Assembly (NCBI GenBank): GCA_913055155.1
Contig: CAJXJR010000002.1
Location: 126,501-190,500, forward strand
Direction: 5' to 3'
DNA from: an uncultured Erythrobacter sp.
Lineage (GTDB): Bacteria > Pseudomonadota > Alphaproteobacteria > Sphingomonadales > Sphingomonadaceae
Length of the DNA: 64,000 bases
The notes beneath the pieces are model-generated. The model had not been told where the DNA came from. It searched no databases and saw only the letters and a list, made by a program, of their open reading frames with translations. This document shows, one piece after another, positions 754 through 64,000 of the stretch; position 1 is the stretch's first letter; every line of letters starts with the position of its first letter. Both the position numbers and the translations under genes were made by a program.

Positions 754-821
754 GAGCGCGCCATTAGCGCCTCCCGCGCTTTACGCCAATAGGTTTGCTC
801 TGGATCGGGCTGCGACCAGCA

Positions 822-892
822 GGCCGCAAGCGCGAACGCGCGCCGGCCGGTCAGGCCGCCCCCTCGGAAGCGATCGCGCAGCGATCTGCCGT
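822..892. repeat. Weak relative of the structured repeat family seen at 46.4 and 49.4 kb
   Basis: The gene-free stretch 754-911 contains CCGCAA followed by a hairpin GCGCG-AA-CGCGC (830-841). About 30 bases on comes AAGC followed by a second hairpin, GATCGC-GCA-GCGATC (872-886). The same order occurs at 49.60-49.66 kb, where the stems are GGCCG-AA-CGGCC and CAGCGC-AAAC-GCGCTG. Frames around the hairpins are shared while the stems differ in sequence. The flanks are less conserved than between the two larger copies, so this may be a decayed or solo half-element, or chance in GC-rich DNA. Confidence 0.4.
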
Positions 893-911
893 GAGAGCGA
901 AAGACAGACAA

Positions 912-25387: not shown

Positions 25388-27241
25388 ATGACCATTTCCA
25401 GCAATCCCGGGCGCGCAGGCCTGTGTTCCATCGCCGCCCTGGCGCTGCTGGCGTCGTGCACCCAGCCGGTTGGTGATAGTGCCGAGGCCGCGCCGGTCAC
25501 GCCGCAGGCCAGCGCCTATGTCCCTGCCGCAGGCGACAGACAGGTCTATTTCGGCGACCTGCACCTGCACACCAGCTTCTCGCTCGATGCCGCCGCCGCC
25601 AAGACCGAGACCACGCCCGAGGATGCCTATCGCTTCGCCCGCGGGGAGCCGGTCAGCTACCTGGGCCGCACCCACCGACGCCACGTGCCGCTGGATTTCC
25701 TCGCCGTAACCGACCACGCCGAATTCCTCGGCAACGTGCGCCGGGCCATGAACGGCGAGATCACCCTGCCGGGCGACCAGCAGGAATGGCAGCGGCTCTA
25801 TTCGCACCAGGGCGGCGCGACCATGTTCGAGCTGTTCGGCTATGCCGCCAGCGGCCTGTTCGGCGAATCGCGGCCCGGCCTGAACGATCCCGCGCTCAGT
25901 CGCGATACCTGGCTGCAGACCATCGCCGCGGCAGAGCGCTATAACGAGCCCGGTCGCTTCACCACTTTCGTCGCCTTCGAATACTCGCCCACCTTCCGCG
26001 CCAATTCCGCGCACCTGCACCGCAACGTGATCTTTCGCGGGCCGGACTATCCGGCCATGCCGTTCTCGGCGCTCGATTCGATGGATCACCGCGACCTGTG
26101 GGCCTATGCCGAAAACCACCGCGCGCGCGGGGTGGAATCGCTGATGATCCCGCACAATGCCAACCTCTCGGTCGGCGGGGCATTCCCCTTCACCGATCCT
26201 TCCAGCGAACCGATGAGCGCGGACTATGCCGCACGCCGCGCGCGCAACGAACCGCTGGTGGAGATCACCCAGATCAAGGGCACCAGCGAGACCCGGCCCG
26301 AATTGTCGCCGCAAGACGAGTTCGCCGATTTCGAGCTGATCGGGTCCGAAGGCGACATGGATGGCAACTACGTGCGTCCCGGCCTGCAGCGCGGCATGCA
26401 GATTGCCGAGATGCTGGGCGTCAACCCGTTCGAGCAGGGCTTTGTCGGCGCGACCGATTACCACTCGGGCATTTCGGCGACGGAAGAAGACAACTATCCC
26501 GGCGGGCTGGGCATGTCGGACGACCAGCGCAATGCCGCGGCCATCCTGACCGAGCTTTCCCCGGTGATCGGCAGCCCGCTGGCGAACCTGTCCGCCTCGG
26601 GCCTCACCGGCGTATGGGCCGAAAGCAATACCCGCGAGGCGATCTTCGCTGCCTTCCAGCGGCGCGAGACTTTCGCCACTTCCGGGCCGCGCATCCGGGT
26701 GCGGCTGTTCGCCGGCTGGGGCGAGGCCGATGGCCTTGCCGAAGGCGGCGACTGGGCCGAGCGCGCCTATCGCTGGGGCGTACCGATGGGCGGCACGCTG
26801 GCCCCGCGCCGGGCGGACGCAGGCGGGCCAAGCTTCGTGGTGCAAGCCGCGCGCGATCCGCGTTCGGGCAATCTCGACCGCGTGCAGATCGTCAAGCTGT
26901 GGCGCGAGGACGGGCGGTCGTTCGAACGGATATACGACGTCGCCTGGTCGCCCGGCCGTCGTCGCATGCCCGACGGGCGGCTGGAGCCGGTCGGCAACAC
27001 GGTGGACGCATCGCGCGCCACCTATACCAACACCATTGGCGCGGCAGAGCTGGTGGGCACCTGGCAGGACCCGGACTTCGATCCCGGCCAGCAGGCCATC
27101 TATTATGCCCGCGTCATCGAAATCCCCACGCCGCGCTGGGCGACATACTTGTCGGTCGCAGCGGGCGTGCCGCTGTCGGAAGGAACCCCCGCATGGCTGC
27201 AGGAACGCGCCTGGACCTCGCCCGTCTACTACAGGCCCTGA
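25388..27241 (+). CDS. DUF3604 lipoprotein, first paralogue
   Basis: This is a 617-residue exported protein with lipobox LASC (Cys24) and a short spacer. The DUF3604 domain, related to PHP-type metallohydrolases, fills the rest. Candidate metal ligands are GDLHLHTSFS (His59, His61), VTDHAEFLG, HNANLS and ATDYHSG. A signature EITQIKGTSETRPELS lies near 297-312. The C-terminal half contains SGLTGVWAES, TFATSGPRIRVRLFAGW and RDPRSGNLDRVQIVKLW. The whole family lacks an assigned substrate. Placement in the cell envelope next to a receptor suggests it processes imported or bound material. It overlaps the second paralogue by about 49 bases. Confidence 0.9.
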   Translation: MTISSNPGRAGLCSIAALALLASCTQPVGDSAEAAPVTPQASAYVPAAGDRQVYFGDLHLHTSFSLDAAAAKTETTPEDAYRFARGEPVSYLGRTHRRHVPLDFLAVTDHAEFLGNVRRAMNGEITLPGDQQEWQRLYSHQGGATMFELFGYAASGLFGESRPGLNDPALSRDTWLQTIAAAERYNEPGRFTTFVAFEYSPTFRANSAHLHRNVIFRGPDYPAMPFSALDSMDHRDLWAYAENHRARGVESLMIPHNANLSVGGAFPFTDPSSEPMSADYAARRARNEPLVEITQIKGTSETRPELSPQDEFADFELIGSEGDMDGNYVRPGLQRGMQIAEMLGVNPFEQGFVGATDYHSGISATEEDNYPGGLGMSDDQRNAAAILTELSPVIGSPLANLSASGLTGVWAESNTREAIFAAFQRRETFATSGPRIRVRLFAGWGEADGLAEGGDWAERAYRWGVPMGGTLAPRRADAGGPSFVVQAARDPRSGNLDRVQIVKLWREDGRSFERIYDVAWSPGRRRMPDGRLEPVGNTVDASRATYTNTIGAAELVGTWQDPDFDPGQQAIYYARVIEIPTPRWATYLSVAAGVPLSEGTPAWLQERAWTSPVYYRP

Positions 27242-29118
27242 TCGTCACTTCGGTGCCCCTGGGCGCCGCTATGTCGCTTTCTGCCTGCGCTCCGGCAGAC
27301 CGGTCGGTAGAGGCACCGCAGGCGGCCCCGGATGTTACCGATACCAGCCGTGCAGAGGCTCCCGCCGACGGCGACCGCATGCTGCTGTGGGGCGATACCC
27401 ACGTCCATTCGACCAACTCCGTAGATGCCTTCGCCACCGGGCTGGCCGCTGCCGATATCGATACCGCCTATCGCTTTGCCCGCGGCATCCCGGTGGTCTT
27501 CCCCAAGACCGGCCAGCGCGTACAGATCGACCGTCCGCTGGATTTCATGGTGATGGCCGACCATGCCGAGAACCTGGGCATTTCGCCGCGCCTTGCCGCC
27601 GGCGATCCCGACCTGCTGGCCACCGACATGGGCCGCCGTTTCCACCGCATCCTGATGGAACGCGGCGGGCGCGCCTTCACCACCGCGATGATGGGCTTCG
27701 ACCAGCCGGAGGACGAGCGGCCCGGTTATTTCGCCGAATTCCTGGCACCCGAAATCCGCCAGACCAGCTGGGACCAGCAGGTCGCCGCGGCAGAGCGGCA
27801 CAACGTGCCCGGCGTGTTCACCGCGATGATCGGCTGGGAGTGGTCAAGCACGCCCAACACCCGCAACCTGCACCGCGTGGTGATGACCAACGCCGATGGC
27901 GACACCGCACGCCGGTTCCTGCCGTTCAGCTACTACATCTCCAACCGGCCGGAGGACCTGTGGGCCTTCTTCGAGCAGACGAGGGCGCGCACGGGTGCCG
28001 ATTTCCTCGCCATGCCGCACAATTCCAACTTGTCCGACGGGCTGATGTTCGCAACCGAGGATAGCGAGGGCAATCCCTTCACCGCCGACTATGCCGCCAC
28101 CCGCTCGATGTGGGAACCGGTGGCCGAAATCACCCAGTACAAGGGCACCTCGGAAACCCATCCGCTGCTTTCCCCGCGTGACGAGTTCGCCGACTTCGAA
28201 CTGCGCAACATGCTGCTTTCGGGGCAGGAAACCGCCGTTTCGGAAGGGTCCTACCTGCGCAGCGCGCTGCTGCGCGGGCTGGCCGAGGAACAGCGCATCG
28301 GGCGCAACCCCTTCGCCTATGGCCTGATCGGCGCCAGCGATGCACACACCGGCCTTTCCTCGCAGCGGGAAGACGATTTCCTCGGCAAGATGGCAGAGGA
28401 TTTCCGCCCTGCCGAGCGGCTGGGCCCGGAGGCCATGCAGGCCACCTTCCCCAATGCCCAGATGTCCGCCGGCGGGCTGGCAGGCGTGTGGGCGGACCGC
28501 AACGACCGGCAGGCGATCTTTGATGCGTTCCGCCGCCGCGAGGTGTTCGCCACCACCGGCCCGCGCATCATGGTGCGGCTGTTCGCCGGGCACGGCTTCG
28601 CGCCCGCCGACGTGGAATCGCGCGATTTCGCAGCCATCGGCTATCGCCGCGGCGTTCCCATGGGCGGCACCCTGCTGCCATCCCGCAATGGTGCGCCGCA
28701 GCTGGCGATCAGGGCCGTGCGGGATCCCGATGCCGCCAACCTCGACCGGGTGCAGGTGGTGAAAGGCTGGCTGGATGCAGACGGCACCATGCGCGAACGC
28801 GTGTTCGACGTGGCCTGGTCGGGCGATCGGCGCCCGGGTGCCGATGGCCGCCTGCCGCCGGTGGGCAACACGGTCGACCTGGCCACCGCACGCTACAGAA
28901 ATTCCATTGGTGCCAGCGAGCTGACCGCGCTGTGGACCGACCCTGAATTCGATGCCGCCCGGCCCGCCTTCTACTACGTCCGCGTGCTGCAGATCCCCAC
29001 CCCGCGCCAGCACGTGTTCGATGCCCTGGCGCTGGGCATGGATCCTGCCGACATCGACCTGCCGCCGACCATCCAGGAACGCGCCTGGTCCTCGCCCGTC
29101 TGGTATCGCCCGCAATGA
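27193..29118 (+). CDS. DUF3604 lipoprotein, second paralogue
   Basis: This is a 641-residue paralogue of the preceding protein. The ATG at 27193 lies inside the end of the first gene, has GGAAGGA about eight bases upstream, and gives a full lipoprotein signal with LSAC (Cys32). Later in-frame starts would destroy it. Candidate metal ligands are GDTHVHSTNSVD (His70, His72), MADHAENLG, MPHNSNLSDG and ASDAHTG. The signature EITQYKGTSETHPLLS is kept. Compared with paralogue one, LHLH is replaced by THVH and DYH by DAH, so the metal sites may differ. It overlaps the isomerase gene (ATGA). Confidence 0.9.
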   Translation: MAAGTRLDLARLLQALIVTSVPLGAAMSLSACAPADRSVEAPQAAPDVTDTSRAEAPADGDRMLLWGDTHVHSTNSVDAFATGLAAADIDTAYRFARGIPVVFPKTGQRVQIDRPLDFMVMADHAENLGISPRLAAGDPDLLATDMGRRFHRILMERGGRAFTTAMMGFDQPEDERPGYFAEFLAPEIRQTSWDQQVAAAERHNVPGVFTAMIGWEWSSTPNTRNLHRVVMTNADGDTARRFLPFSYYISNRPEDLWAFFEQTRARTGADFLAMPHNSNLSDGLMFATEDSEGNPFTADYAATRSMWEPVAEITQYKGTSETHPLLSPRDEFADFELRNMLLSGQETAVSEGSYLRSALLRGLAEEQRIGRNPFAYGLIGASDAHTGLSSQREDDFLGKMAEDFRPAERLGPEAMQATFPNAQMSAGGLAGVWADRNDRQAIFDAFRRREVFATTGPRIMVRLFAGHGFAPADVESRDFAAIGYRRGVPMGGTLLPSRNGAPQLAIRAVRDPDAANLDRVQVVKGWLDADGTMRERVFDVAWSGDRRPGADGRLPPVGNTVDLATARYRNSIGASELTALWTDPEFDAARPAFYYVRVLQIPTPRQHVFDALALGMDPADIDLPPTIQERAWSSPVWYRPQ

Positions 29119-32960: not shown

Positions 32961-33922
32961 CAGTCCACTTTGCGGAACAGCAAGGTCATGCGGTCGCTTT
33001 CGCCGATATCGGCGCGGCGACGGCGTTCGCGGCTGCCCTCGGCGGCGCCGGCATAGCTGGGCGGCAGGCTCCACACGCCGCGCTCCCAGTTGGCCGGATC
33101 GCGCGGATTGGCGTTGATCTCGCTGGCGGCGACCAGTTCGAAACCATAGATGGCGAACAGGCGGATGACGTCTTCCTGCCGCTGGTAGCCGTTGTCGCCA
33201 AGGGTGTAGTCGAGCGGCGCATCGGGCCGCGCGCGGTGCTGCACCACGCCCACCAGGCCATCGTCCTTCAGCAGGGTGCGGATCGCCAGCATCGAATCGT
33301 GCAGCCAGCCGAACCGGCGCATGTTGTGCATTTCGCGGAAGATCAGCACCCGGTCTGCGGTGCCGGCAAAGCTGTCCAGGTCGTCATCGGTGTTGAGGCC
33401 CCAGACACGCGCACCGTCCTGCCCCACCCAGTCGCGGGCATCTGCGGGGATGCGCGAGGAGGCACCCCGATACATGTCCCAGTAACCGGTCAGGTCCGGG
33501 TGCAGTTCGGGGTTGAGGCCGATATAATTGCCATCGCGCCCCAGGTAGGGGATCAGCACGCGCGAATACCAGCCGGTGGCGGGCATGTAATCGACCACGG
33601 TCATGCCGGGTTCGACGTCGAAGAAGGCCAGCGTTTCGGCCGGGTGGCGCCAGGCATCGCGGGCGCGATCGTCCGCGCGGCGTGGGTGCATCAGCACCTC
33701 TTCCATGGTCTGCGCGCGCTCCGCCTGCGCATCGGCGGCAGGCTGGGTCGGCTGCGTCGTTTGCTGCTGCTGTTGCTGGTTGCGCCCGCTAAGCACGTCC
33801 AGCACGCCGCGCAGGATCTGTTCGCCGGTCGATGGCTCCTCCTCCTGCTGCTGTTGCTGGGCAGCCAGGGCCGGGGTGGAAACCGCCATCGTGGCAGCGG
33901 CAAGGCAGGAAAGAACGCGCAT
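32960..33922 (-). CDS. Secreted methyltransferase-like protein, second paralogue
   Basis: This is a 320-residue protein with a signal peptide (about 1-20, ending PALAA), a glutamine-rich linker (two runs of five and six Gln before residue 60) and a class I methyltransferase-like domain. The motif I equivalent is VVDYMPATGWYSRVL, where the usual acidic-x-Gly-x-Gly is degraded. Later parts (VLIFREMHNM, RTLLKDDGLVGVVQHRA, DPANWERGVWSLPPS) match its neighbour closely. S-adenosylmethionine is not known in the periplasm, so it may have lost activity or bind something else. It overlaps both neighbours by one base (TGATG). Confidence 0.83.
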   Translation of the reverse strand: MRVLSCLAAATMAVSTPALAAQQQQQEEEPSTGEQILRGVLDVLSGRNQQQQQQTTQPTQPAADAQAERAQTMEEVLMHPRRADDRARDAWRHPAETLAFFDVEPGMTVVDYMPATGWYSRVLIPYLGRDGNYIGLNPELHPDLTGYWDMYRGASSRIPADARDWVGQDGARVWGLNTDDDLDSFAGTADRVLIFREMHNMRRFGWLHDSMLAIRTLLKDDGLVGVVQHRARPDAPLDYTLGDNGYQRQEDVIRLFAIYGFELVAASEINANPRDPANWERGVWSLPPSYAGAAEGSRERRRRADIGESDRMTLLFRKVD

Positions 33923-34731
33923 CAGTTGGCCTTTCTGAACAACAGGGTCATGCGATCGCTCTCGCCAATCGCCTCGTAGCGTTCGCGATCCTCTTCACCG
34001 TAACGCAGCACCGGGGGCAAGGTCCACACACCGCCTTCCCAGTTGGCCGGATCATCCGGGTTGGCGTTGATTTCCGACGCGGCGACCAGGTCGAAGCCGT
34101 GGATGGCGAACAGGCGGATCACGTCCGCCTGGCGCATGTAGCCGTTGGCGCCGTTGGCATATTCGTAAGCCGCCTCTTCCGGCGCGCGGTGCTGCACCAC
34201 GCCCACCAGCCCGTCGTCGGCCAGCAGCGAACGGATGGCACGCAATTCGCGGTCGGCGGCATTGGCGTTCATCAGCCCGTGGATCGAGCGGAACACCAGC
34301 ACGCGGTCCACCGTGCCCAGCAGATCCTCGGGAATCTCGTCGCTCTCGAAAGCGGTAATGTCGTCGGCGTCGAAGGCGCCGCCGGCAGTGCTGGCGGCGA
34401 TGAAGCGTTCCGCCCAGCTCGGCTGGCCCGGCTCGCCCGGTCCGGTATCGGCCTGCATCGCCATGTATTCGCCGTGCGGCGCGATCCACGGCAGCAGCAC
34501 GCGGGTATACCAGCCGCCACCGGGGCCGAATTCCACCACCCGCATGCTCGGCTCCACGCCGAAGAAGCGCAAGGTCTCTGCCGGGTGGCGATAGCGGTCG
34601 CGCGCACTGTCTTCGCTGCGCAGGTCCATGGCCAGCACCTCTTCCAGGGCTGGACCTTCGCCGTGGTTGTCAGCCAGGGCAGGCGCGGCGAGGATTGCCG
34701 CGGCAGCGGCGAAAAGGGGGGCAAGTCGCAC
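33922..34731 (-). CDS. Secreted methyltransferase-like protein, first paralogue
   Basis: This is a 269-residue protein. The GTG start (34729-34731) has GGGAG seven to eight bases upstream and opens a clear signal peptide (RLAPLFAAAAAILAAPALA). The domain keeps a good glycine motif, VVEFGPGGGWYTRVLLP, then VLVFRSIHGL, SLLADDGLVGVVQHRAP and YGEEDRERYEAIGESDRMTLLFRK. This is the predicted-methyltransferase type seen in proteobacteria with exported forms. It is the first gene of a three-gene coupled unit. Substrate and cofactor are unknown. Confidence 0.83.
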   Translation of the reverse strand: MRLAPLFAAAAAILAAPALADNHGEGPALEEVLAMDLRSEDSARDRYRHPAETLRFFGVEPSMRVVEFGPGGGWYTRVLLPWIAPHGEYMAMQADTGPGEPGQPSWAERFIAASTAGGAFDADDITAFESDEIPEDLLGTVDRVLVFRSIHGLMNANAADRELRAIRSLLADDGLVGVVQHRAPEEAAYEYANGANGYMRQADVIRLFAIHGFDLVAASEINANPDDPANWEGGVWTLPPVLRYGEEDRERYEAIGESDRMTLLFRKAN

Positions 34732-44793: not shown

Positions 44794-46332
44794 GTGAAGC
44801 CAGTGCGCTATTCATACGCTTTCACGGCGACCCTGCTGGCAGGCGGGGCCGCCATCTCCCTTCTCACCGGCTTTCCTGCCGGGGCCCAGGTTGCCCAGAA
44901 CGACCGTATCCAGGTGCAGAACGCCGTGCCGGTCGCGGGTGCACCTGCCAGCTTCGCCGACCTGGTCGAAGTGCTGCAGCCGGCGGTGGTGAACATCTCG
45001 ACTCGCCAGTCGATCACCATCCCGCAGGCGCAGAACCCGTTCGAAGGCACGCCGTTCGGCGAACTGTTCAATCGCCGCAACCAGGGGCCGCAGCGGCGCG
45101 AGGCGCAATCGCTGGGTTCGGGCTTCATCGTTTCGGCCGACGGCTATGTCGTCACCAACAACCACGTCGTCTCGCCCGACCAGCGCGCCGAGCTGGAAGA
45201 GGTAACGGTGACGCTGCCCGACGGAACCGAGTACGAAGCCGAACTGGTCGGCACCGATATCTCGTCCGACCTGGCAGTGCTGAAGATCAGCCGCGCCGAA
45301 CCCTTCCCCTTCGTCAATTTCGGTGACAGCAACCAGGCCCGCGTGGGTGACTGGGTGATTGCCATCGGCAACCCCTTCGGCCTGGGCGGCACGGTCACCA
45401 GCGGCATCATCTCGGCCTTGCAGCGCACCACCGGTCGTGGCGGCGCATTCGACAGCTTCATCCAGACCGACGCCGCCATCAACCGCGGCAACTCGGGCGG
45501 TCCGCTGTTCGACATGCAGGGCAATGTCATCGGCATCAACAACCAGATCCTTTCCGCGTCGGGCGGCAGCAACGGCATTGGCCTTGCCATTCCCGCCGAA
45601 GACGCCGCCCCCATCGTGCAGGCGCTGATCGCCGGCGAGGAAATCGAGCGCGGCTATCTCGGCGTGCAGATCCAGCCGGTGGACGAGGATATTGCCGAAG
45701 CCCTCGGCATCGAGGAAGGCGTGGGCGAACTGGTGCAGGGCGTGCAGCCCGGCGAAGCCGCCGAAGGCGCAGGCCTGCAGCCGGGCGACGTGGTCGTGGC
45801 CGTGAACGGCGAGGAAGTAACGCCCGACAACACCCTGTCGCGCATCGTCGCCAATATCGAGCCGGGCACCACCGTGCCGCTGACCTATATCCGCAACGGC
45901 CAGCGCAACCGCGTGAACCTGACCGTAGGCCGCCGCCCCAGCGAAGAAGAGCTGATGCAGCAGAACATGTTCCAGGGCGATGACGAGACGCCGCCCCCCT
46001 CGACGCCCGAAAAGGGCAGCGGGATGATGGAAGAACTGCTGGGTGTGCAGGCGGTGGAAATCACCCCGCAGATCGCCCGCCAGCTGGGCCAGCCGGCGGA
46101 CACCACCGGCCTTGCCATCACTGCCGTCGATCCGAATTCCGATGCAGCCCGCCGGGGCCTTTCCCGAGGGGTGATGATCCTTTCGGCCAACGGTCGCCCC
46201 ATCGCAACGGTCGAAGACCTGGAAGAAGTGCTCGGCTCGATCCGGGCCGATGGCCGCGAAGCCGTGCTGCTGCGCGTGCGCAGCCGCCAGGGCGTGACCC
46301 AGTCGATCCCGGTGCGGTTTATCGAAGAGTGA
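44794..46332 (+). CDS. degP: Do-family periplasmic serine endopeptidase (DegP/DegQ-like)
   Basis: This is a protease of about 512 residues. A signal peptide ending in PAGAQ precedes the trypsin-like domain. Its triad is visible in TNNHVV (His), SSDLAVL (Asp) and AINRGNSGGPL (Ser). Two PDZ domains follow: GYLGVQIQPVDEDIAEAL onward, and EITPQIARQLGQ onward. The start is uncertain. I favour GTG 44794 (KPVRYSYAF), with GAGGA ten bases upstream; TTG 44770 and ATG 44755 are in frame. Its stop is convergent with PBP1, with a structured repeat between. Confidence 0.9.
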   Translation: MKPVRYSYAFTATLLAGGAAISLLTGFPAGAQVAQNDRIQVQNAVPVAGAPASFADLVEVLQPAVVNISTRQSITIPQAQNPFEGTPFGELFNRRNQGPQRREAQSLGSGFIVSADGYVVTNNHVVSPDQRAELEEVTVTLPDGTEYEAELVGTDISSDLAVLKISRAEPFPFVNFGDSNQARVGDWVIAIGNPFGLGGTVTSGIISALQRTTGRGGAFDSFIQTDAAINRGNSGGPLFDMQGNVIGINNQILSASGGSNGIGLAIPAEDAAPIVQALIAGEEIERGYLGVQIQPVDEDIAEALGIEEGVGELVQGVQPGEAAEGAGLQPGDVVVAVNGEEVTPDNTLSRIVANIEPGTTVPLTYIRNGQRNRVNLTVGRRPSEEELMQQNMFQGDDETPPPSTPEKGSGMMEELLGVQAVEITPQIARQLGQPADTTGLAITAVDPNSDAARRGLSRGVMILSANGRPIATVEDLEEVLGSIRADGREAVLLRVRSRQGVTQSIPVRFIEE

Positions 46333-46678
46333 TTGCGTTTGCCTCTCGGGCTTGGGGCTGATCGGTCCCGGCTCGGGAGGTGGTGGCTTGTTTCGCGCGA
46401 TTGCTTGTTTTCCGCACCTGCCTCCGCAGGTGCGTCCTCGCTAGACGCGCTCCCCCCGGATCAACTCCGGGGTACGCGCCCGCTGCGGGCGGGCGTTCGC
46501 CCTTGCGGTCGGATAGCGCCGACCGTTTCCAGCGCGAATGTCACTAGCTGGTACAAGTCTCGGTCGCGACTGACGGCCGACCGAGCGCGAACGCGCGACC
46601 CGCAGGTGCCGCGCAGCGAAGCGGAGCGAATAGCACCGAGGACGCACCTGCGGAGGCAGGTGCGGAAAACAAACTATC
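46333..46678. other. Gene-free convergent intergenic region holding a structured repeat
   Basis: These 346 bases separate the convergent stops of the Do-type protease and PBP1. No convincing gene is present; small open frames here (Arg/Pro/Ala-rich) are translations of the repeat. From 46405 to 46672 the DNA is a large imperfect inverted repeat, described separately. The first 70 bases are unremarkable. Confidence 0.8.
46405..46672. repeat. Structured inverted-repeat element, copy C (two half-elements head to head)
   Basis: The ends (46405-46440 and 46637-46672) are perfect 36-base inverted repeats. Each end contains its own hairpin: CGCACCTGC, loop CTCC, GCAGGTGCG. Inside are hairpins GGGCG-TT-CGCCC (46491-46502) and GCGCG-AA-CGCGC (46585-46596). 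The right half (46599-46645, read on minus) shares 46 of 47 bases with 49467-49513. Lying between two stops, it may act as a bidirectional terminator as well as a repeat. Confidence 0.82.
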
Positions 46679-48913
46679 CTAAAAGCGTTGCTCGTTGATC
46701 GCGTTCTGGCGCGGTCTTTCGCCCTGTTTGCGCTCGTCGCCCGGCAGGCTTTGCCCGGTCGCGCGTTCGAGGAAATCGTCGCTGGCCGCAGGCGGCGGTT
46801 CGCTGCGGCGCGGGGCCGGTGTGGGTGACGGCAGCGGCTGGCCGATGCCGCGCGGGTCGAGCGGGTCGCGGATCACGTTCTCGCCCTCGCCTTCGACATC
46901 GAAGGCATCGCCGAAGCTGCCCTGGTTGCCGCTCGGGTCGACCAGGTTCCCCTGCTCGTCGATGTAGAAGTAATAGTCCTCGTCATCGCCGTAGTAGAAC
47001 TCGTCATCGGGCTCCAGCTGCCATTCGGGCAATTGCAGGTCGGTATCGAATTCCTCCACCGGCCGATCGCGCACGGCATAGCGCATGTAGGCGGCAAAGG
47101 CCTGTGCCGGGGCACGTCCGCCGGAAAGGCCGGGCACGCGCCCGTTGTCGTCGCGGCCCATCCACACGCCGGTGGTGATGCCGCTGGAAAAGCCCACGAA
47201 ATAGCCGTCGCGGTTGGTGCTGGTAGTGCCGGTCTTGCCCGCCACCGGTCGCCCGATCTGCGCCGCACGCCCGGTGCCGGTGGCAACGGCAGTCTGCAAC
47301 AGGTCGGTGATCCCGGCAGCGACATAGTCGGGCACCAGGGTATAGCTGCGCGGCGCCTGGTGCTGGTACAGCTCCTCGCCATCGGCGGTGGTCACGCGCA
47401 GGATTCCGTAGGGCTCTATCGAGCGCCCGCCTGCCGAGACCGCGGAGAACGCGCGCACCATGTCGATCAGGCGCACTTCCGATGTTCCCAGCACCATGGA
47501 GGGGTAGGTGGAAATCGGCGTGGTGATGCCGAACCGGCGCGCCATGCTGGCAACGTTGGAAAAGCCCACTTCGTTGCCCAGCTGCGCCGCCACGGTGTTC
47601 TTGGAATAGGCAAAGGCGGTGCGCACGTCGATCTCGCCGGCATAGGTTCCGCCGGAATTGCGCGGGCTCCAGTCGTTGATGGTGACAGGCACATCGTTCA
47701 CCCGGTCATCGGGCGTGTATCCGGCTTCCAGCGCGGCGAGGTAGACGAACAGCTTCCACGCGGAACCCGGCTGGCGCATGGCATCGGTCGCGCGGTTGTA
47801 GTTGGAGGTGACGTAATCGGTGCCGCCCACCAGCGCCAGGATCGCCCCGTCGCGGTCCAGGCTGACCAGGGCGCCCTGCGTGCCATCGGGCACGTTGGAC
47901 TGGATCGCCGCGGTGGCCGCGCGCTGCATGCCCACATCCAGCGTGGTCCACACCTCGATCGGTTCGAAATTGCCGTTGGGCAGCAGCAGGTCGAGCTGCG
48001 GCAGCGCCCAGTCGGTGAAATAGCGGATCGAGTTCTGGCCTTCGATGGTGCGCAGGTTCACCGCGCTGACATCGACCGTGCGCGCCACGGCCGGGTCCAG
48101 CCCACCGTAACGCACCATCTGCCCCACCACCACATTGGCGCGACCCACGGCGGCCTCCACATTGGCGGTGGGGGAATAGCGGCTGGGCGCCTTCACCATG
48201 CCGGCAATGATGGCGGCTTCCTCCAGGCTCAGCTCGCGTGCGGAATGGCTGAAGAACTTGCGGGAAGCGGAATCGATGCCATAGGCGCCGCCGCCGAAAT
48301 AGACCTTGTTGAGGTACAGCTCGAGGATCTGGTCCTTGGTAAAACGCCATTCCAGCGCCATCGCCAGCACCGCCTCGCGCAGCTTGCGGTCCAGCGTGCG
48401 GTTGGAATTGAGGAAGATGTTGCGCGCCAGCTGCTGGGTGATGGTGGAGGTGGCGGACACCTGCCGATCCTCCAGCACGGCGTTGTAGACCGCGCGCGCC
48501 AGGCCCATCGGGTCGACACCGAAATGCGAGTAGAAGCGGTGGTCCTCGACAGAGACCATCGCCTGCTTCATCACGTCGGGAATCTCGTCGGCATCCAGCC
48601 ACTGGCCATAACTGGGCCCCAGCTCGACGATCTGCGATCCGTCGCGCGCGCGCACCAGGATGGTCTGGCCGTTCTGGCTTTCCCGCAGGGAGGCATAGGA
48701 AGGCAAACTGCGCGATGCGAAGAACACCGCCGTCGCCAGCCCGATGGCGGCGAGCAGGCCCAGGAAGACCCCGGTGATCGCCAGCCGCCTGGTCCAGCGC
48801 CACAGGCCGGCCTTCCAGCCGCCCGATGCCGCCGCACGATCACGCGCAGCAGATGCGGCGCGACGTGACCGGTATCCTCTCTTGTTGGAGCCACTGCCCC
48901 GCCGTCTGGCCAT
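46679..48913 (-). CDS. PBP1A-family bifunctional peptidoglycan synthase
   Basis: This is a 744-residue class A penicillin-binding protein. A basic cytoplasmic tail (ARRRGSGSNKRGYRSRR) precedes one membrane segment (about 44-66). The glycosyltransferase (GT51) domain has EDHRFYSHFG, TSTITQQLARN and KDQILELYLNKVYFGGGAYG. The transpeptidase domain has PGSAWKLF (SxxK), YSKNTVAA (SxN) and AGKTGTTS (KTG). The C-terminus is a long acidic, Tyr-rich then Pro-rich tail (about 625-744), which is unusual in length. It ends against the repeat at 46.4 kb. Confidence 0.93.
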   Translation of the reverse strand: MARRRGSGSNKRGYRSRRAASAARDRAAASGGWKAGLWRWTRRLAITGVFLGLLAAIGLATAVFFASRSLPSYASLRESQNGQTILVRARDGSQIVELGPSYGQWLDADEIPDVMKQAMVSVEDHRFYSHFGVDPMGLARAVYNAVLEDRQVSATSTITQQLARNIFLNSNRTLDRKLREAVLAMALEWRFTKDQILELYLNKVYFGGGAYGIDSASRKFFSHSARELSLEEAAIIAGMVKAPSRYSPTANVEAAVGRANVVVGQMVRYGGLDPAVARTVDVSAVNLRTIEGQNSIRYFTDWALPQLDLLLPNGNFEPIEVWTTLDVGMQRAATAAIQSNVPDGTQGALVSLDRDGAILALVGGTDYVTSNYNRATDAMRQPGSAWKLFVYLAALEAGYTPDDRVNDVPVTINDWSPRNSGGTYAGEIDVRTAFAYSKNTVAAQLGNEVGFSNVASMARRFGITTPISTYPSMVLGTSEVRLIDMVRAFSAVSAGGRSIEPYGILRVTTADGEELYQHQAPRSYTLVPDYVAAGITDLLQTAVATGTGRAAQIGRPVAGKTGTTSTNRDGYFVGFSSGITTGVWMGRDDNGRVPGLSGGRAPAQAFAAYMRYAVRDRPVEEFDTDLQLPEWQLEPDDEFYYGDDEDYYFYIDEQGNLVDPSGNQGSFGDAFDVEGEGENVIRDPLDPRGIGQPLPSPTPAPRRSEPPPAASDDFLERATGQSLPGDERKQGERPRQNAINEQRF

Positions 48914-49019
48914 TTACCGTCAAATTCCCGCGTAAGCGCGCCTGTTTCATGCGCTGGTCATTCCTTCAACGAAGGCCATGCATAGGGCATTCATAATCCA
49001 GCGTGAACGGCTGCCACGT

Positions 49020-49433
49020 TCAATCGCCCGCTTTTTCCTCCGGTTCGAATTCCAGCGCGGCGGAATTGATGCAGTAACGCAGGCCATCGGGCCCCGGTCC
49101 GTCGGGGAAGACGTGGCCAAGGTGCCCGGCACACTTGCTGCACACCACTTCGGTGCGGACCATGCCGTGCGAGACATCCTGGTTCATTTCGACGGCCTGC
49201 TGGTCTGCCGGAGCGGTGAAGCTGGGCCAGCCGGATCCGCTGTCGTACTTGGCGTCGCTTTCGAACAGTGGCTGGCCGCAACCGGCGCACTTGTATTCGC
49301 CGGCGGCCTTGTTCTTCTCGTACTTGCCGGTGAAGGCCCGCTCGGTCCCGGCCTCGCGCAGCACGCGGTACTGCTCGGGGGTGAGCTTCTCGCGCCATTC
49401 GGCGTCGGTGAGTTGAATCTTGTCGGTGGTCAT
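49020..49433 (-). CDS. msrB: Peptide-methionine (R)-S-oxide reductase
   Basis: This is a 137-residue MsrB. Zinc ligands are two CxxC pairs ([10 protein letters not shown] and [13 protein letters not shown]). The catalytic cysteine is in [11 protein letters not shown] near the C-terminus, and GSGWPSF is the substrate loop. No signal peptide is present, so it is cytosolic. It is not linked to msrA (34.8 kb). Its upstream region is a copy of the structured repeat beginning seven bases before the ATG, so its promoter must lie within or beyond that element. Confidence 0.95.
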
Positions 49434-49436
49434 GAT

Positions 49437-49660
49437 TGTTTTCCTTTCGCTCGCGCCTCCGCGCGAGCGTCCTCGGTGCTGTTCGCTCCGCTTCGCTGCG
49501 CGGCACCTGCGGGCGGGCGTTCGCCCTTGCGGTCACCGCGTGACCGTTTCCCGCGCCAGATAGCCAACTGGCGTTATATCGGTTCGCCAAAGGCGGACCG
49601 CAAGGCCGAACGGCCGCCCGAGCTTTTGCGAGGAAAGCCAAGCAGCGCAAACGCGCTGCG
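49437..49660. repeat. Structured repeat element, copy B
   Basis: It begins GTTTTCC, then a 9-bp hairpin CGCTCGCGC, loop CTCC, GCGCGAGCG (49448-49469), then TCCTCGG. The core 49467-49513 matches the minus strand of 46599-46645 with one mismatch. Then come GGGCG-TT-CGCCC (49515-49526) followed by TTGCGGTC, and, in inverted order, GACCGCAA and GGCCG-AA-CGGCC (49604-49615). Last is CAGCGC-AAAC-GCGCTG (49643-49658). Loops and flanks match other copies while stems differ, with pairing kept. It fills the gap between msrB and the GST gene; no gene is seen in it. Confidence 0.78.
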
Positions 49661-49685
49661 CCCGGCGCTTGAGGCCCTTAACAAG

Positions 49686-50357
49686 TCAGGCATTCACGTC
49701 GGCGTAGTGCCGCGGTGCGGGCAGGCCTTCCATCTTCTGGCTCAACAACGGAGCGAAGCTGGGACGGCTCTTCATGACCCGGTACCAGGCATGGGCCTGG
49801 TCATGTCCCGACCAGTCGATCCCGCCGAGGTAATCGATCACCGAAAGCTGCGCGGCGGCGGCGAAATCGGCCAGGCTCAGCTGCGCGCCGGCCAGCCAGC
49901 GACGGTTGTCGATCAGCCAGTCGAGGTAGTCGAGATGTTCGTGGGTCAGTCGCATAGCCGCGCGCAGCACGCCCGAATCGGGCGATTGCCGCAGGATCAG
50001 CCGCTTCTTCATCTTCTCGTAGATCAGCGGTTCGGTAACATCGCCGTACAGGCCATCGTCGAACAGCGCGGTCAGGCGGCGCACTTCCGCGCGTGCAGCG
50101 GCGGAACCGGGGATCAGCGGGCTCTTGGCCTCGGTTTCCTCGAAGTATTCGCAGATCGCCTGGCTGTCGATCAGCACCAGCCGCCGTTCGACATTGTGCA
50201 GCACCGGGGTCTTGCCTGCCGGGTTGAGCGAATGGAACCGATCGTCATCTTCCCACGGGTAAGCCAGCTGCAGGGCGAAGGGCACTTTCTTTTCCGAAAG
50301 CACCAGCTGAACCTTGCGGCTGAACGGACAGAGCGGGAAGTGATAGAGTTGCCACAT
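49686..50357 (-). CDS. Glutathione S-transferase family protein
   Basis: This is a 223-residue protein with an N-terminal thioredoxin-like domain: YHFPLCPFSRKVQLVLSEKK, with CPFS as a possible glutathione-binding Cys/Ser site, and NPAGKTPVL and DSQAICEYFEE (the Ser for gamma-glutamyl binding). A C-terminal helical domain holds LDWLIDNRRWLAGAQLSLADFAAAAQLSVIDYLGG. The CPFS motif suggests a beta/omega-like or glutaredoxin-like member. Substrate is unknown. It lies at the edge of the catabolic cluster, so a role there, such as ether cleavage as with LigE/LigF, is possible but not shown. Confidence 0.87.
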   Translation of the reverse strand: MWQLYHFPLCPFSRKVQLVLSEKKVPFALQLAYPWEDDDRFHSLNPAGKTPVLHNVERRLVLIDSQAICEYFEETEAKSPLIPGSAAARAEVRRLTALFDDGLYGDVTEPLIYEKMKKRLILRQSPDSGVLRAAMRLTHEHLDYLDWLIDNRRWLAGAQLSLADFAAAAQLSVIDYLGGIDWSGHDQAHAWYRVMKSRPSFAPLLSQKMEGLPAPRHYADVNA

Positions 50358-63102: not shown

Positions 63103-64000
63103 TTACATGCCCGAACCCGGACCGTAGGTGATTTCCACGCGGCGGTTCTGCAGTTCACGCACACCGTCAGCAGTCGGCACGCGCGGCATGCTTTCACCGA
63201 AGGCTTCGCTAGAGATGCGAGCTTCGGGGATTCCGCGATCGGTCAGGTAGGCCTGCACCGATGCATTGCGTCGAGCCGCCAGTCCCATGTTGTACTCCTC
63301 GCTACCCGAACGGTCGGTGTGACCGGCCAGCATGATCGCTGCCGTACCGCAGTCACCGTAGGCGGTGATCGCCGAGTTGAGCACGGTCGCAGCCTCGGGC
63401 GTGATGTCCGACTGATCCCAGTCGAAGAACACGATGTACGGGCCCTGCTCGCAGACCGGAGCCGGCGGCGGAGGCGGCGGCGGCGGAGGCGGAGGCGGCG
63501 GCGGCGGCGGAGGCGGAGGCGGCGGCGGCGGCGGCGGCGGCGGAGGCGGCGGAGCTTCCTCACCACCGAACATGAACCTCAGCGTCGCACCACCCGAGTG
63601 GACCTTGTGGAGATCGCCCATCCAGCCCTCGTAGTCGAGGCGCAGCGACGCACTGTCGCTGAGAGCCACGGCAAGGCTGAAGCCAGCAGCGATGACATCC
63701 TCGTCACGCTGCGGACCAAGGACCGTAAAGGTCGAGCCAGGTGCCGCTGCATAGGACGCCAGGAAGCTGGTCGGTGCATCTTCGAACTGGTGACGCCAGC
63801 CAACGCGAGCCTCAGGGAAGACGTTGCCCATCGGCAGACCCAACTTAAGGCCGAGTTCGCCGGTGGTGTAGTCGTCTTCTGCGTCAAACACGGTCAGGTT
63901 AGCAGCAGTCGTGCCCGTTTCGGTAAAGCCTTCCAGCTCCGCCGAGACGTAGTCGAGCGCGGCATAGGGCGTCAGCGTAGCTCCGCCCACAGGCAGGCGA
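63103..64000 (-). CDS. Autotransporter-barrel / OmpA fusion outer-membrane protein, partial (5' end outside window)
   Basis: About 299 C-terminal residues are visible. The first part (VGGATLTPYAALDYVSAELEGF onward, in pieces) resembles an autotransporter beta-barrel domain ending LRFMFGG. Then come 30 consecutive prolines (codons 63463-63552, mostly CCG with six CCT) and the OmpA peptidoglycan-binding domain: YIVFFDWDQSDITPEA, LAGHTDRSGSEEYN, and ELQNRRVEI at the end. The polyproline linker would span the periplasm. The frame continues beyond position 64000, so its start is not seen. Confidence 0.9.
   Translation of the reverse strand, partial: RLPVGGATLTPYAALDYVSAELEGFTETGTTAANLTVFDAEDDYTTGELGLKLGLPMGNVFPEARVGWRHQFEDAPTSFLASYAAAPGSTFTVLGPQRDEDVIAAGFSLAVALSDSASLRLDYEGWMGDLHKVHSGGATLRFMFGGEEAPPPPPPPPPPPPPPPPPPPPPPPPPPPPPPAPVCEQGPYIVFFDWDQSDITPEAATVLNSAITAYGDCGTAAIMLAGHTDRSGSEEYNMGLAARRNASVQAYLTDRGIPEARISSEAFGESMPRVPTADGVRELQNRRVEITYGPGSGM

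Follow-up and report, generated by a model that had tools for sequence, protein, structure and literature searches.

A patchily distributed family of hairpin-ended mosaic intergenic repeats with variable but paired stems

The intergenic repeats described here were encountered in a 64,000-nucleotide stretch of bacterial DNA (the window, meaning the whole stretch that was analysed). The initial annotation had proposed a repeat family from two copies, and a genome-wide search with the model R1 (E ≤ 0.01) bore this out, yielding at least 41 end modules in a host genome that probably belongs to the genus Alteraurantiacibacter. The outer hairpins of these modules vary freely in stem sequence while their arms continue to pair, different end types are combined like modules, and the elements are frequently located at stop codons. 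Comparison of related species revealed gain or turnover of elements at orthologous sites, and stems have been homogenised within genomes. The explanation that we consider, on balance, just the probable one is that these are untagged (lacking GTAG and CGTC), RAYT-less, non-coding, hairpin-ended mosaic intergenic repeats of the REP/BIME type, which spread as DNA.

Copy C (46405..46678, +), delimited from its sequence and with model R1, lies between convergent genes for an HtrA/Deg-type protease and a PBP1-type protein, both assigned with Pfam, and is double-ended, with an X' end on the left and an inverted X end on the right. The X' end carries an outer hairpin, hp1 (46413..46434, +), with stem CGCACCTGC and loop CTCC; the same hairpin, reading CGCACCTGC/CTCC/GCAGGTGCG, recurs at 46643..46664 (−) within the X end (46600..46672, −), which is of the GGTGC...GCACC type and whose module begins 6 nt beyond the TAG codon that ends the PBP gene (46679-48913, −). 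On the 3' side of hp1 in the X' end are a TCCTCG box (46435..46440, +) that is invariant in a 21-row alignment, a cassette-slot hairpin CCCCGGATCAACTCCGGGG (46454..46472, +) whose letters we take to resemble the core of CGTC-tagged REPs, and the inner hairpin hp3, GGGCGTTCGCCC (46491..46502, +). The termini of copy C form 42-nt arms that are 95% complementary.

The second copy (49436..49682, +) has an X end on the left and a Y end on the right, and occupies the gap that separates msrB (49020-49433, −) from a GST gene (49686-50357, −), both named by Pfam. Its hp1 (49448..49469, +) reads CGCTCGCGC/CTCC/GCGCGAGCG, and the Y end includes the hairpin GCAGCGC/AAAC/GCGCTGC (49642..49659, +). Within the T-run of this copy, as read from the sequence, lies AAAGGAAA (49440..49447, −), likely the Shine-Dalgarno motif of msrB, which would then be placed inside the element. 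Both copies had initially been described as GTTTTCC followed by a 9-bp hairpin with a CTCC loop; the hairpins and their differing stems stand, and in the 49.4-kb copy TTT intervenes. The 47-base core reported for the two copies in opposite orientation was found to differ by a single A/G exchange; it is part of an 80-nt stretch that the right end of copy C shares with the 49.4-kb copy, again in opposite orientation and with 85% identity. With up to three mismatches allowed, the core TTCGCTCCGCTTCGCTGCGC has two occurrences in the window, against 0.02 expected. A degenerate X'-like copy, recognised by eye (804..911, −), sits directly behind the TGA that terminates a DUF192 gene (912-1415, −; Pfam) and gave no match with model R1. 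The sole Rfam match at gathering score in the window was a tRNA, and a plasmid search with copy C gave no match.

Model R1 was trained on copies from the host genome that included the three ends in the window, and their scores of 75-92 bits thus reflect fit by construction; the next match in the window after these three has E=0.0005. The 41 modules are a lower bound because scoring covered 150 of 4456 first-look candidates. With a single X or X' edge counted for each element, they correspond to 34 elements. Modules were also collected across several genomes, where 212 of 226 were kept after duplicates and unanchored modules had been dropped. The distribution of the family is patchy, with elements present in 36 of 149 family genomes; a pattern match in Parapedobacter was rejected as an element, having neither an R1 hit nor a visible hairpin.

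The X and X' ends consist of hairpins in series: first an outer one whose loop is NTCC and whose stem sequence is free, then, beyond the TCCTCG box, a slot that can take different hairpins, and last the inner hairpins. A third end type, Y, is related to them. The loop reads NTCC in 194 of 212 modules, and TCCTCG and CTGCGG are kept in all 21 alignment rows, conservation that is biased in so far as the modules were found with a model containing these parts. Among Y ends, the CCTCG box is present in 22 of 59 rows, of which 48 were anchored, some of these with the frame off by one. Set beside MITEs of DDE transposons, for which target-site duplications and matching terminal inverted repeats are expected, many ends here start with YTTG, but the stems of an element's two ends match at chance level only. 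In the host genome, 21 of the 34 elements have two inverted ends, the second being of Y type in 16 and of X type in 5, and the remainder are single ends, with solo X' ends measuring about 130 bp. Across several genomes the X-X' span has a median of about 256 bp, and 59 inverted pairs comprised 38 X-X', 5 X-X and 16 of other types; X'-X' pairs were absent from these 59, in loci mostly picked with an X-type pattern that gave them little chance of appearing.

The stems of the two ends of an element agree only at chance level (5.37 against 5.24 of 9 positions over the 59 inverted pairs), and identical ends as a general rule were rejected. Copy C does have the 36-base perfect terminal inverted repeats attributed to it, 36 identical bases in inverted arrangement, and is in this respect atypical.

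The 212 multi-genome modules contain 110 distinct stems of the outer 9-bp hairpin, and in these 92.5% of positions are paired, compared with a mean of 63.1% and a maximum of 67.5% in 5000 re-pairings of the arms. The claim that stems vary while pairing is kept therefore holds far beyond chance, and neither of the two outcomes named in advance as refuting, chance-level pairing or a family of two copies only, came about. Changes on both sides were seen at 7 of the 9 pairs of hp1. Pairing is less complete in the model's inner helices (88% and 79% of cells), and X' has a disrupted GGTGC stem.

When copies at the same gene ends of related species were compared, 26 of 31 changed pairs were double changes that kept pairing; three single changes also kept it, and one double and one single change broke it, a count based on ten hand-chosen, non-independent comparisons that cover 6 of 22 sites and have sequences in common. 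Identical stems were found in 118 of 1124 pairs within genomes and in 85 of 4441 between genomes; in place of the 118, 2000 random permutations of the labels gave 41 on average and 76 at most. Moreover, the same stem occurs on both X and X' bodies. Because identical stems recur within genomes and on different bodies, many of the double changes are replacements of whole palindromes, not stepwise compensation. Mismatches at stem positions 2-9, counted in 106 of the 110 distinct stems, those in which 6 or more of the 9 positions pair, showed no strand bias (G-T 11, A-C 17, p=0.34). The initial annotation had read the pairing as selection on the fold as RNA or single-stranded DNA; the pairing of variable stems was upheld, but since stems spread as whole units within genomes and inner mismatches lack strand bias, selection on an RNA fold finds only partial support.

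The elements often lie at gene ends. After dropping duplicates and edges with less than 420 nt upstream, 206 of 226 X and X' edges were kept, and 97 of these fall in the interval from -6 to +10 nt around the stop codon of a long ORF directed into the element. In the host genome, 33 of 34 elements lie between convergent or tandem genes, as judged with a gene caller that is blind to tRNA genes, and elements are also found directly 3' of a tRNA-Trp gene and a tRNA-Thr gene. The stop is TAG in 16 of 21 cases in the host genome compared with 15 of 53 in the background (p=2.3e-4), as if the end of the element supplied the stop codon.

For 22 of the 34 elements, orthologous gene ends were sought in two congeners, with one genome per species, such that filled and empty sites are compared across species. 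Forty of 44 matches were taken as orthologous; of the other four, two weak ones were used only for the copy C site and two weaker ones were dropped. The element is absent at 26 of the 40 gene ends, and at 6 of these 26 the gene ends overlap or lie no more than 2 nt apart. Copy C is missing in both relatives, where the gaps measure 72 and 82 nt, and so is the second copy, with gaps of 124 and 44 nt. The other 14 of the 40 gene ends are filled, some with a different or inverted element; since the same gene ends are filled in two or three species, many elements may be old.

The RIME and ABC elements of Rhizobium are alphaproteobacterial mosaics of intergenic palindromes, and they can be likened to the present family by description only. 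The CGTC-tagged REPs, as portrayed in the available excerpts of Di Nocera 2013 (PMC3733652), occur mostly in alpha-proteobacteria and are palindromes with 8-9 bp stems of variable sequence and 4-5 nt loops that form inverted dimers, often lie within 20 bp of the 3' ends of convergent or co-directional genes, and have no dedicated transposase. The present family resembles them in all these traits, including the 9-bp stems, the NTCC loops and the position of edges near stops, and some copies contain a nested hairpin like those of CGTC REPs. However, the stem-loops in the same excerpts are flanked on one side by an unpaired CGTC (TGTC and CCTC also occur), have A-T as the first and second stem pairs, and bear a CCA tail (PMC3733652), whereas here a T-run precedes hp1, a CGTC string following the loop has its CG within the stem, and TCCTCG follows the stem in 21 of 21 rows. 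Stem position 1 is C-G in 66 of 108 modules and position 2 is G-C in 103 of 108, after 5 of 113 modules without a TCCTC anchor had been dropped. Unlike in CGTC REPs, each unit here joins several hairpins in a row, and three types of end exist. GTAG REPs, BIMEs and REPINs with RAYT (excerpts of PMC3733652, PMC3116915 and PMC2817692) are, similarly, mosaics of inverted palindromic units, and GTAG REP ends often supply a TAG stop codon (PMC3733652); the inverted, non-identical palindromic modules of the 21 double-ended host elements work like a BIME mosaic, whereas the GTAG tetranucleotide is absent from the stem foot in an alignment of 21 ends. The excerpts also mention REPs inside genes of 'E. 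lithoralis' (PMC3733652). No paper on the present family was found among the matches listed in the open-licence PMC literature.

If these repeats spread as DNA, a putative enzyme would recognise their ends by shape (hairpin, loop and box) while the DNA is single-stranded or cruciform; recombination between copies would spread stems further, and insertions would persist where harm is least, at gene 3' ends. The number of modules, the pairing of the 110 stems, the NTCC loop, stem homogenisation and patchy presence all support spread as DNA, as do the empty orthologous sites, the stop-codon location, the TAG excess and the unbiased mismatches at positions 2-9. The chance-level agreement between the two ends counts against it, being unsuited to a model that needs matched ends. 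The weaker inner helices and the 14 of 40 gene ends filled in more than one species also speak against it, and the comparison of one genome per species brought out no target duplication and no difference between strains. The search for a mobilising enzyme likewise counts against it. The RAYT gene suggested initially is absent: Y1_Tnp was found neither in the host genome nor in G014 or G103, and it occurs in 3 of 36 element genomes and 21 of 113 others. RVT_1 occurs in 11 of 36 and 36 of 113, and Transposase_20 in 5 of 36 and 46 of 113. RAYT, reverse transcriptase and IS110-type transposase were therefore rejected as movers, for want of association over the 149 genomes, in a test that covers these three families.

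A contender that we regard as unlikely, although with a real claim to attention, is that the hairpins work within the upstream gene's mRNA, either by blocking 3' exonucleases or as a site for an RNA protein (the NTCC loops, or GGAN loops on the other strand), and that selection on the RNA keeps them paired. Location directly behind stop codons and tRNA genes is in keeping with this, and the neighbouring gene reads into 8 of 10 solo X' ends. At one locus, L141, the stop codon is followed first by the element and then by an intrinsic-terminator-like hairpin with a T-run, which both relatives also have (by eye). Moreover, at the outermost pair of hp1, set aside from the count at positions 2-9, G-T mismatches outnumber A-C by 40 to 14 among the 212 modules, as expected of RNA on that strand, an excess that also counts against spread as DNA. 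Folded as RNA, copy C has z=-12 and the second copy z=-3.4. However, copy C is equally extreme as DNA (z=-12), positions 2-9 have no excess of G-T over A-C, elements at one and the same orthologous gene end can point in opposite directions (L050 and L228, L058 and L209; by eye), and relatives carry no element beside the same genes. For elements spreading as DNA, those at gene 3' ends are probably transcribed as 3'-UTR hairpins, and effects on the mRNA are possible as side effects.

Quasi-palindrome correction, which is template switching in hairpins, could together with gene conversion keep the stems perfect, leaving a fold without function. The dominance of double changes at the same gene ends, stem homogenisation within genomes and the lack of strand bias at positions 2-9 are what such a process would produce. 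We nevertheless judge it distinctly unlikely, given that unpaired parts are conserved as well (the NTCC loop, and TCCTCG and CTGCGG in a model-biased set) and that copy number and spread would need a further cause.

It is very improbable that the elements are bidirectional or local transcription terminators of a common design. Half of the host elements (17 of 34) lie between convergent genes, and both relatives have an intrinsic-terminator-like hairpin with a T-run at the site of copy C (by eye); since a terminator scan found none next to copy C itself, the element may have replaced a terminator there. However, in the reading direction of the gene the T-run comes before the outer hairpin and not behind it, terminator-like sites between 46200 and 49800 number 2 compared with 2.2 in shuffles, and L141 retains its terminator-like hairpin besides the element.

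It is scarcely plausible that the outward reading of the Y end, and perhaps of X', gives a derived ribozyme of the twister-sister type. Over 46300-49800, Rfam at E ≤ 1 gave one sub-threshold match and nothing more: RF02681, which scores 24.7 bits where the gathering score is 34, at 49593..49681 (+) on the Y end of the second copy. A relative reaches 29.1 bits over a part that is a Y end by sequence, the strands GCAAGGCC...GGCGCU are shared with twister-sister in the cmscan alignment, and 3 of 9 matches in the host genome at E ≤ 10 coincide with element modules, at the window copy and at C2:116605-116703 and C14:36652-36715. Against this, none of 13 genus genomes reaches the gathering score, 8 of 14 control genomes also have sub-threshold matches, and among 20 loci with Y ends the window copy alone scores E ≤ 1. 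At the place of the cleavage dinucleotide, given as C62-A63 in the available part of PMC11620745 (see also the excerpts of PMC6154101), C-A is not kept, and 49 of 68 pattern matches read (C/T)(C/T)TGAGG, the other 19 being unsorted. Finally, a RAYT-mobilised REPIN as in Pseudomonas, for which inverted hairpin pairs, many copies and location at gene 3' ends would speak (excerpts of PMC3733652), is hardly credible and already largely refuted by the distribution of Y1_Tnp and the lack of a GTAG tag in 21 ends.

A bolder version of spread as DNA, which we consider quite unlikely, is that an enzyme outside the three tested families recognises the shape of the hairpin and not the sequence of its stem, and that the Y end may descend from a twister-sister-type self-cleaving fold that was once part of the copying process. 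If true, such shape-guided recognition would constitute a new route for the spreading of repeats. The occurrence of 110 stems with a kept loop and box renders shape recognition testable with oligonucleotides, and the availability of empty and filled sites, and of element-rich and element-free relatives, makes the missing enzyme searchable by comparison of gene contents.

Two elements of the repeat family lie in the window: copy C (46405-46678), whose left end is of type X' and whose right end is an inverted X, and a second copy (49436-49682), which combines an X end with a Y end. A decayed third copy was recognised by eye on the minus strand near 804-911. The initial annotation had considered the first two to be members of a repeat family, and R1, a covariance model of X and X' ends built from 21 ends, found at least 41 modules (E<=0.01) in the 3.1 Mb genome, more than these two copies. 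Most of the sequence details also held: copy C carries 36 identical bases at both ends, a 47-base core is common to the two copies, and they have two distinct perfect 9-bp stems, both with the loop CTCC. GTTTTCC does precede the hairpin but, in the second copy, TTT sits between them. Other repeats in the window are coding blocks at 25900-29100 and 33060-34244, several spaced about 1.86-1.87 kb apart with 70-96% similarity and another of 232 nt with 78% similarity at a spacing of 953 nt, which are probably tandem gene duplications, and a short GGC/GGA-rich repeat (63445-63561) within a minus-strand gene call (63103-63990).

X and X' ends are built alike, with a T-run, an outer 9-bp hairpin (hp1), a TCCTCG box, a slot for interchangeable hairpins, including GTCCTTCGGAC, GCTTCGC, CCCCGGATCAACTCCGGGG and AGCAAGCT, and inner hairpins; 194 of 212 modules have an NTCC loop in hp1. 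Y constitutes a third end type, many hairpins of which read GGAC or GGAT outward, equivalent to NTCC inward, and the TCCTCG box is present in 22 of 59 Y rows (e.g., locus L243). With each element represented by a single X or X' edge (n=34), a second inverted end occurs in 21 elements of this genome, 16 of Y type and five of X type, and none was found by pattern in 13, ten of these being solo X' ends roughly 130 bp long. Inverted pairs from several genomes (n=59) comprised 38 X-X', five X-X and no X'-X' combinations, with other types involved in 16; the absence of X'-X' pairs may be a sampling effect because most loci were chosen via X ends. At locus L052, a CGTC-REP-like unit, CGTCACCCCGGACTTGATCCGGGGCCCA, adjoins the X' end about 145 nt past the X' module start, and hairpins related to this unit occupy the slot of several copies. 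Moreover, a cassette TTATCCTGAGCGCCTGCC...GGCAGGC...CGAA, located in the slot or between ends at L144, L145, L139 and in some copies of genomes G014 and G016, is probably a second nested repeat family.

The claim that stems change while pairing is kept received strong support. Among the 21 ends, aligned by sequence with the structure assigned by us, hp1 has changed on both sides at 7 of 9 pairs with 97.4% of cells paired, and the remaining helices give a weaker signal (88%, 100% and 79% of cells); the whole-structure covariation score was reached in 0 of 500 shuffles, and the number of further pair types was equalled in 58 of 500. The 212 modules, found by R1 in several genomes and anchored on TCCTC alone, carry 110 distinct hp1 stems, and when each is counted once 92.5% of positions are paired (G-T included), far above the 63.1% (maximum 67.5%) on 5000 re-pairings of the arms. 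For Y stems, where the frame is off by one in some, the values are 77% versus 51% (maximum 63%). Ten comparisons, selected by us and not independent of one another, were made between copies sitting at the same gene end: of 31 changed pairs, 26 had changed on both sides and still paired, three had changed on one side and still paired, and two had lost their pairing.

The initial annotation had attributed this to selection on the fold as RNA or single-stranded DNA. Pairing is indeed beyond chance, but the RNA component fares less well. If the hairpins have a role as RNA, selection on that strand should favour G-T mismatches, and the 11 G-T versus 17 A-C found at positions 2-9 of 106 distinct stems (p=0.34) count against it. 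The outermost hp1 pair was left out of this test because it borders the T-run; there, G-T exceeds A-C (40 versus 14 in 212 modules), which counts against the reading drawn from positions 2-9. Identical stems are found in 118 of 1124 pairs within genomes versus 85 of 4441 between genomes; when genome labels were permuted 2000 times, the within-genome count averaged 41 and never exceeded 76. In addition, the same stem occurs on X and on X' bodies. On balance, the stems vary and spread as whole palindromes, at the DNA level, and may in addition have a role as RNA. Stems at the two ends of one element agree at chance level (5.37 versus 5.24 of 9; 59 pairs), and therefore perfect inverted ends like those of copy C are not the rule.

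The Y end of the second copy matches the Rfam twister-sister model (49593-49681; 24.7 bits, E=0.03 for 3.5 kb) under the gathering cut-off of 34, and among 20 Y-end loci it alone scores at E<=1. No match above the cut-off occurred in 13 genomes of the genus, where the best, at 29.1 bits, was a Y end; this genome yielded nine matches at E<=10, three on element modules, and 8 of 14 control genomes likewise had matches under the cut-off. On the strand where C-A would be cleaved, 49 of 68 pattern matches have (C/T)(C/T)TGAGG. We treat twister-sister as a resemblance of the Y end and not as membership.

Of 206 X/X' edges, 97 fall between -6 and +10 nt relative to the stop codon of a long ORF that reads into the element, versus 97 of 2937 random positions (3.3%), a lenient control that takes in coding sequence. 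Using a simple gene caller, blind to tRNA genes, the 34 elements were assigned to 17 convergent, 16 tandem and one divergent gene pair, and gaps in the window minus its two copies to 6, 38 and 7, respectively. Copies also directly follow tRNA-Trp and tRNA-Thr genes (L039, L042). Beside X/X' edges in this genome, 16 of 21 stop codons are TAG versus 15 of 53 elsewhere at these loci (p=2.3e-4), a pattern to be expected if the element frequently contributes the stop codon. The X module of the second window copy begins 6 nt ahead of the msrB start codon, and the msrB Shine-Dalgarno sequence seems to fall inside it; its likely location is the T-run (49440-49447), which would make the element a translation start region.

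For 22 of the 34 sites the flanking gene end was looked up in two congeners (G014 and G103), and 40 of 44 matches were accepted as orthologous. An element was present at 14, 13 by R1 and one of Y type by eye (L203), and absent at 26, with genes overlapping or <=2 nt apart in six of those according to the gene caller. Neither congener has an element where the second window copy lies (gaps of 124 and 44 nt); the site of copy C carries no element (gaps of 72 and 82 nt; two weak matches to the same gene pair) and, by eye, a terminator-like hairpin in both. At shared sites, the type or orientation of the element is not always the same (L050/L228 and L058/L209, by eye). Given the empty sites and these differences, elements are gained and also altered in situ, frequently where gene ends are closely packed. 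At L226 in G103, orthologous to L046, a solitary hairpin, TTTCATGAAGCCGTCTCTGCGGCTTCATG, lies between convergent genes where this genome has a full element, and is possibly a remnant or minimal form. At the L040 site both congeners carry another palindromic repeat, GATTGC...CTCGCAATGACG (L220 in G103, L229 in G014), which is also nested in L201 (G014), in the same kind of place.

Within the family, 36 of 149 genomes and 23 of 96 genera have R1 matches at E<=0.01. In an order-wide sample, for which the listing does not give the number of other families included, 66 of 296 genomes matched at E<=1e-4, all from the same family and eight from the genus; a 21-base pattern matched records of Aurantiacibacter, Alteraurantiacibacter, Erythrobacter and further relatives. 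As for a REP-type transposase (RAYT), raised in the initial annotation, its Y1_Tnp domain was not found in this genome. Across 36 element genomes and 113 others, Y1_Tnp (3 versus 21), RVT_1 (11 versus 36) and Transposase_20 (5 versus 46) were considered as a possible mover, and none fits by presence.

No description of this family was found among the open-licence papers listed by the literature searches. One account of REPs (PMC3733652) describes inverted dimers, positions no more than 20 bp from gene 3' ends, GTAG REPs whose ends provide TAG, and CGTC REPs, found mainly in alpha-proteobacteria, that lack a transposase. Compared with that account, the manner of life is the same, whereas the defining REP tags are absent here and the architecture is larger; the family is hence probably an untagged variant of the REP kind.
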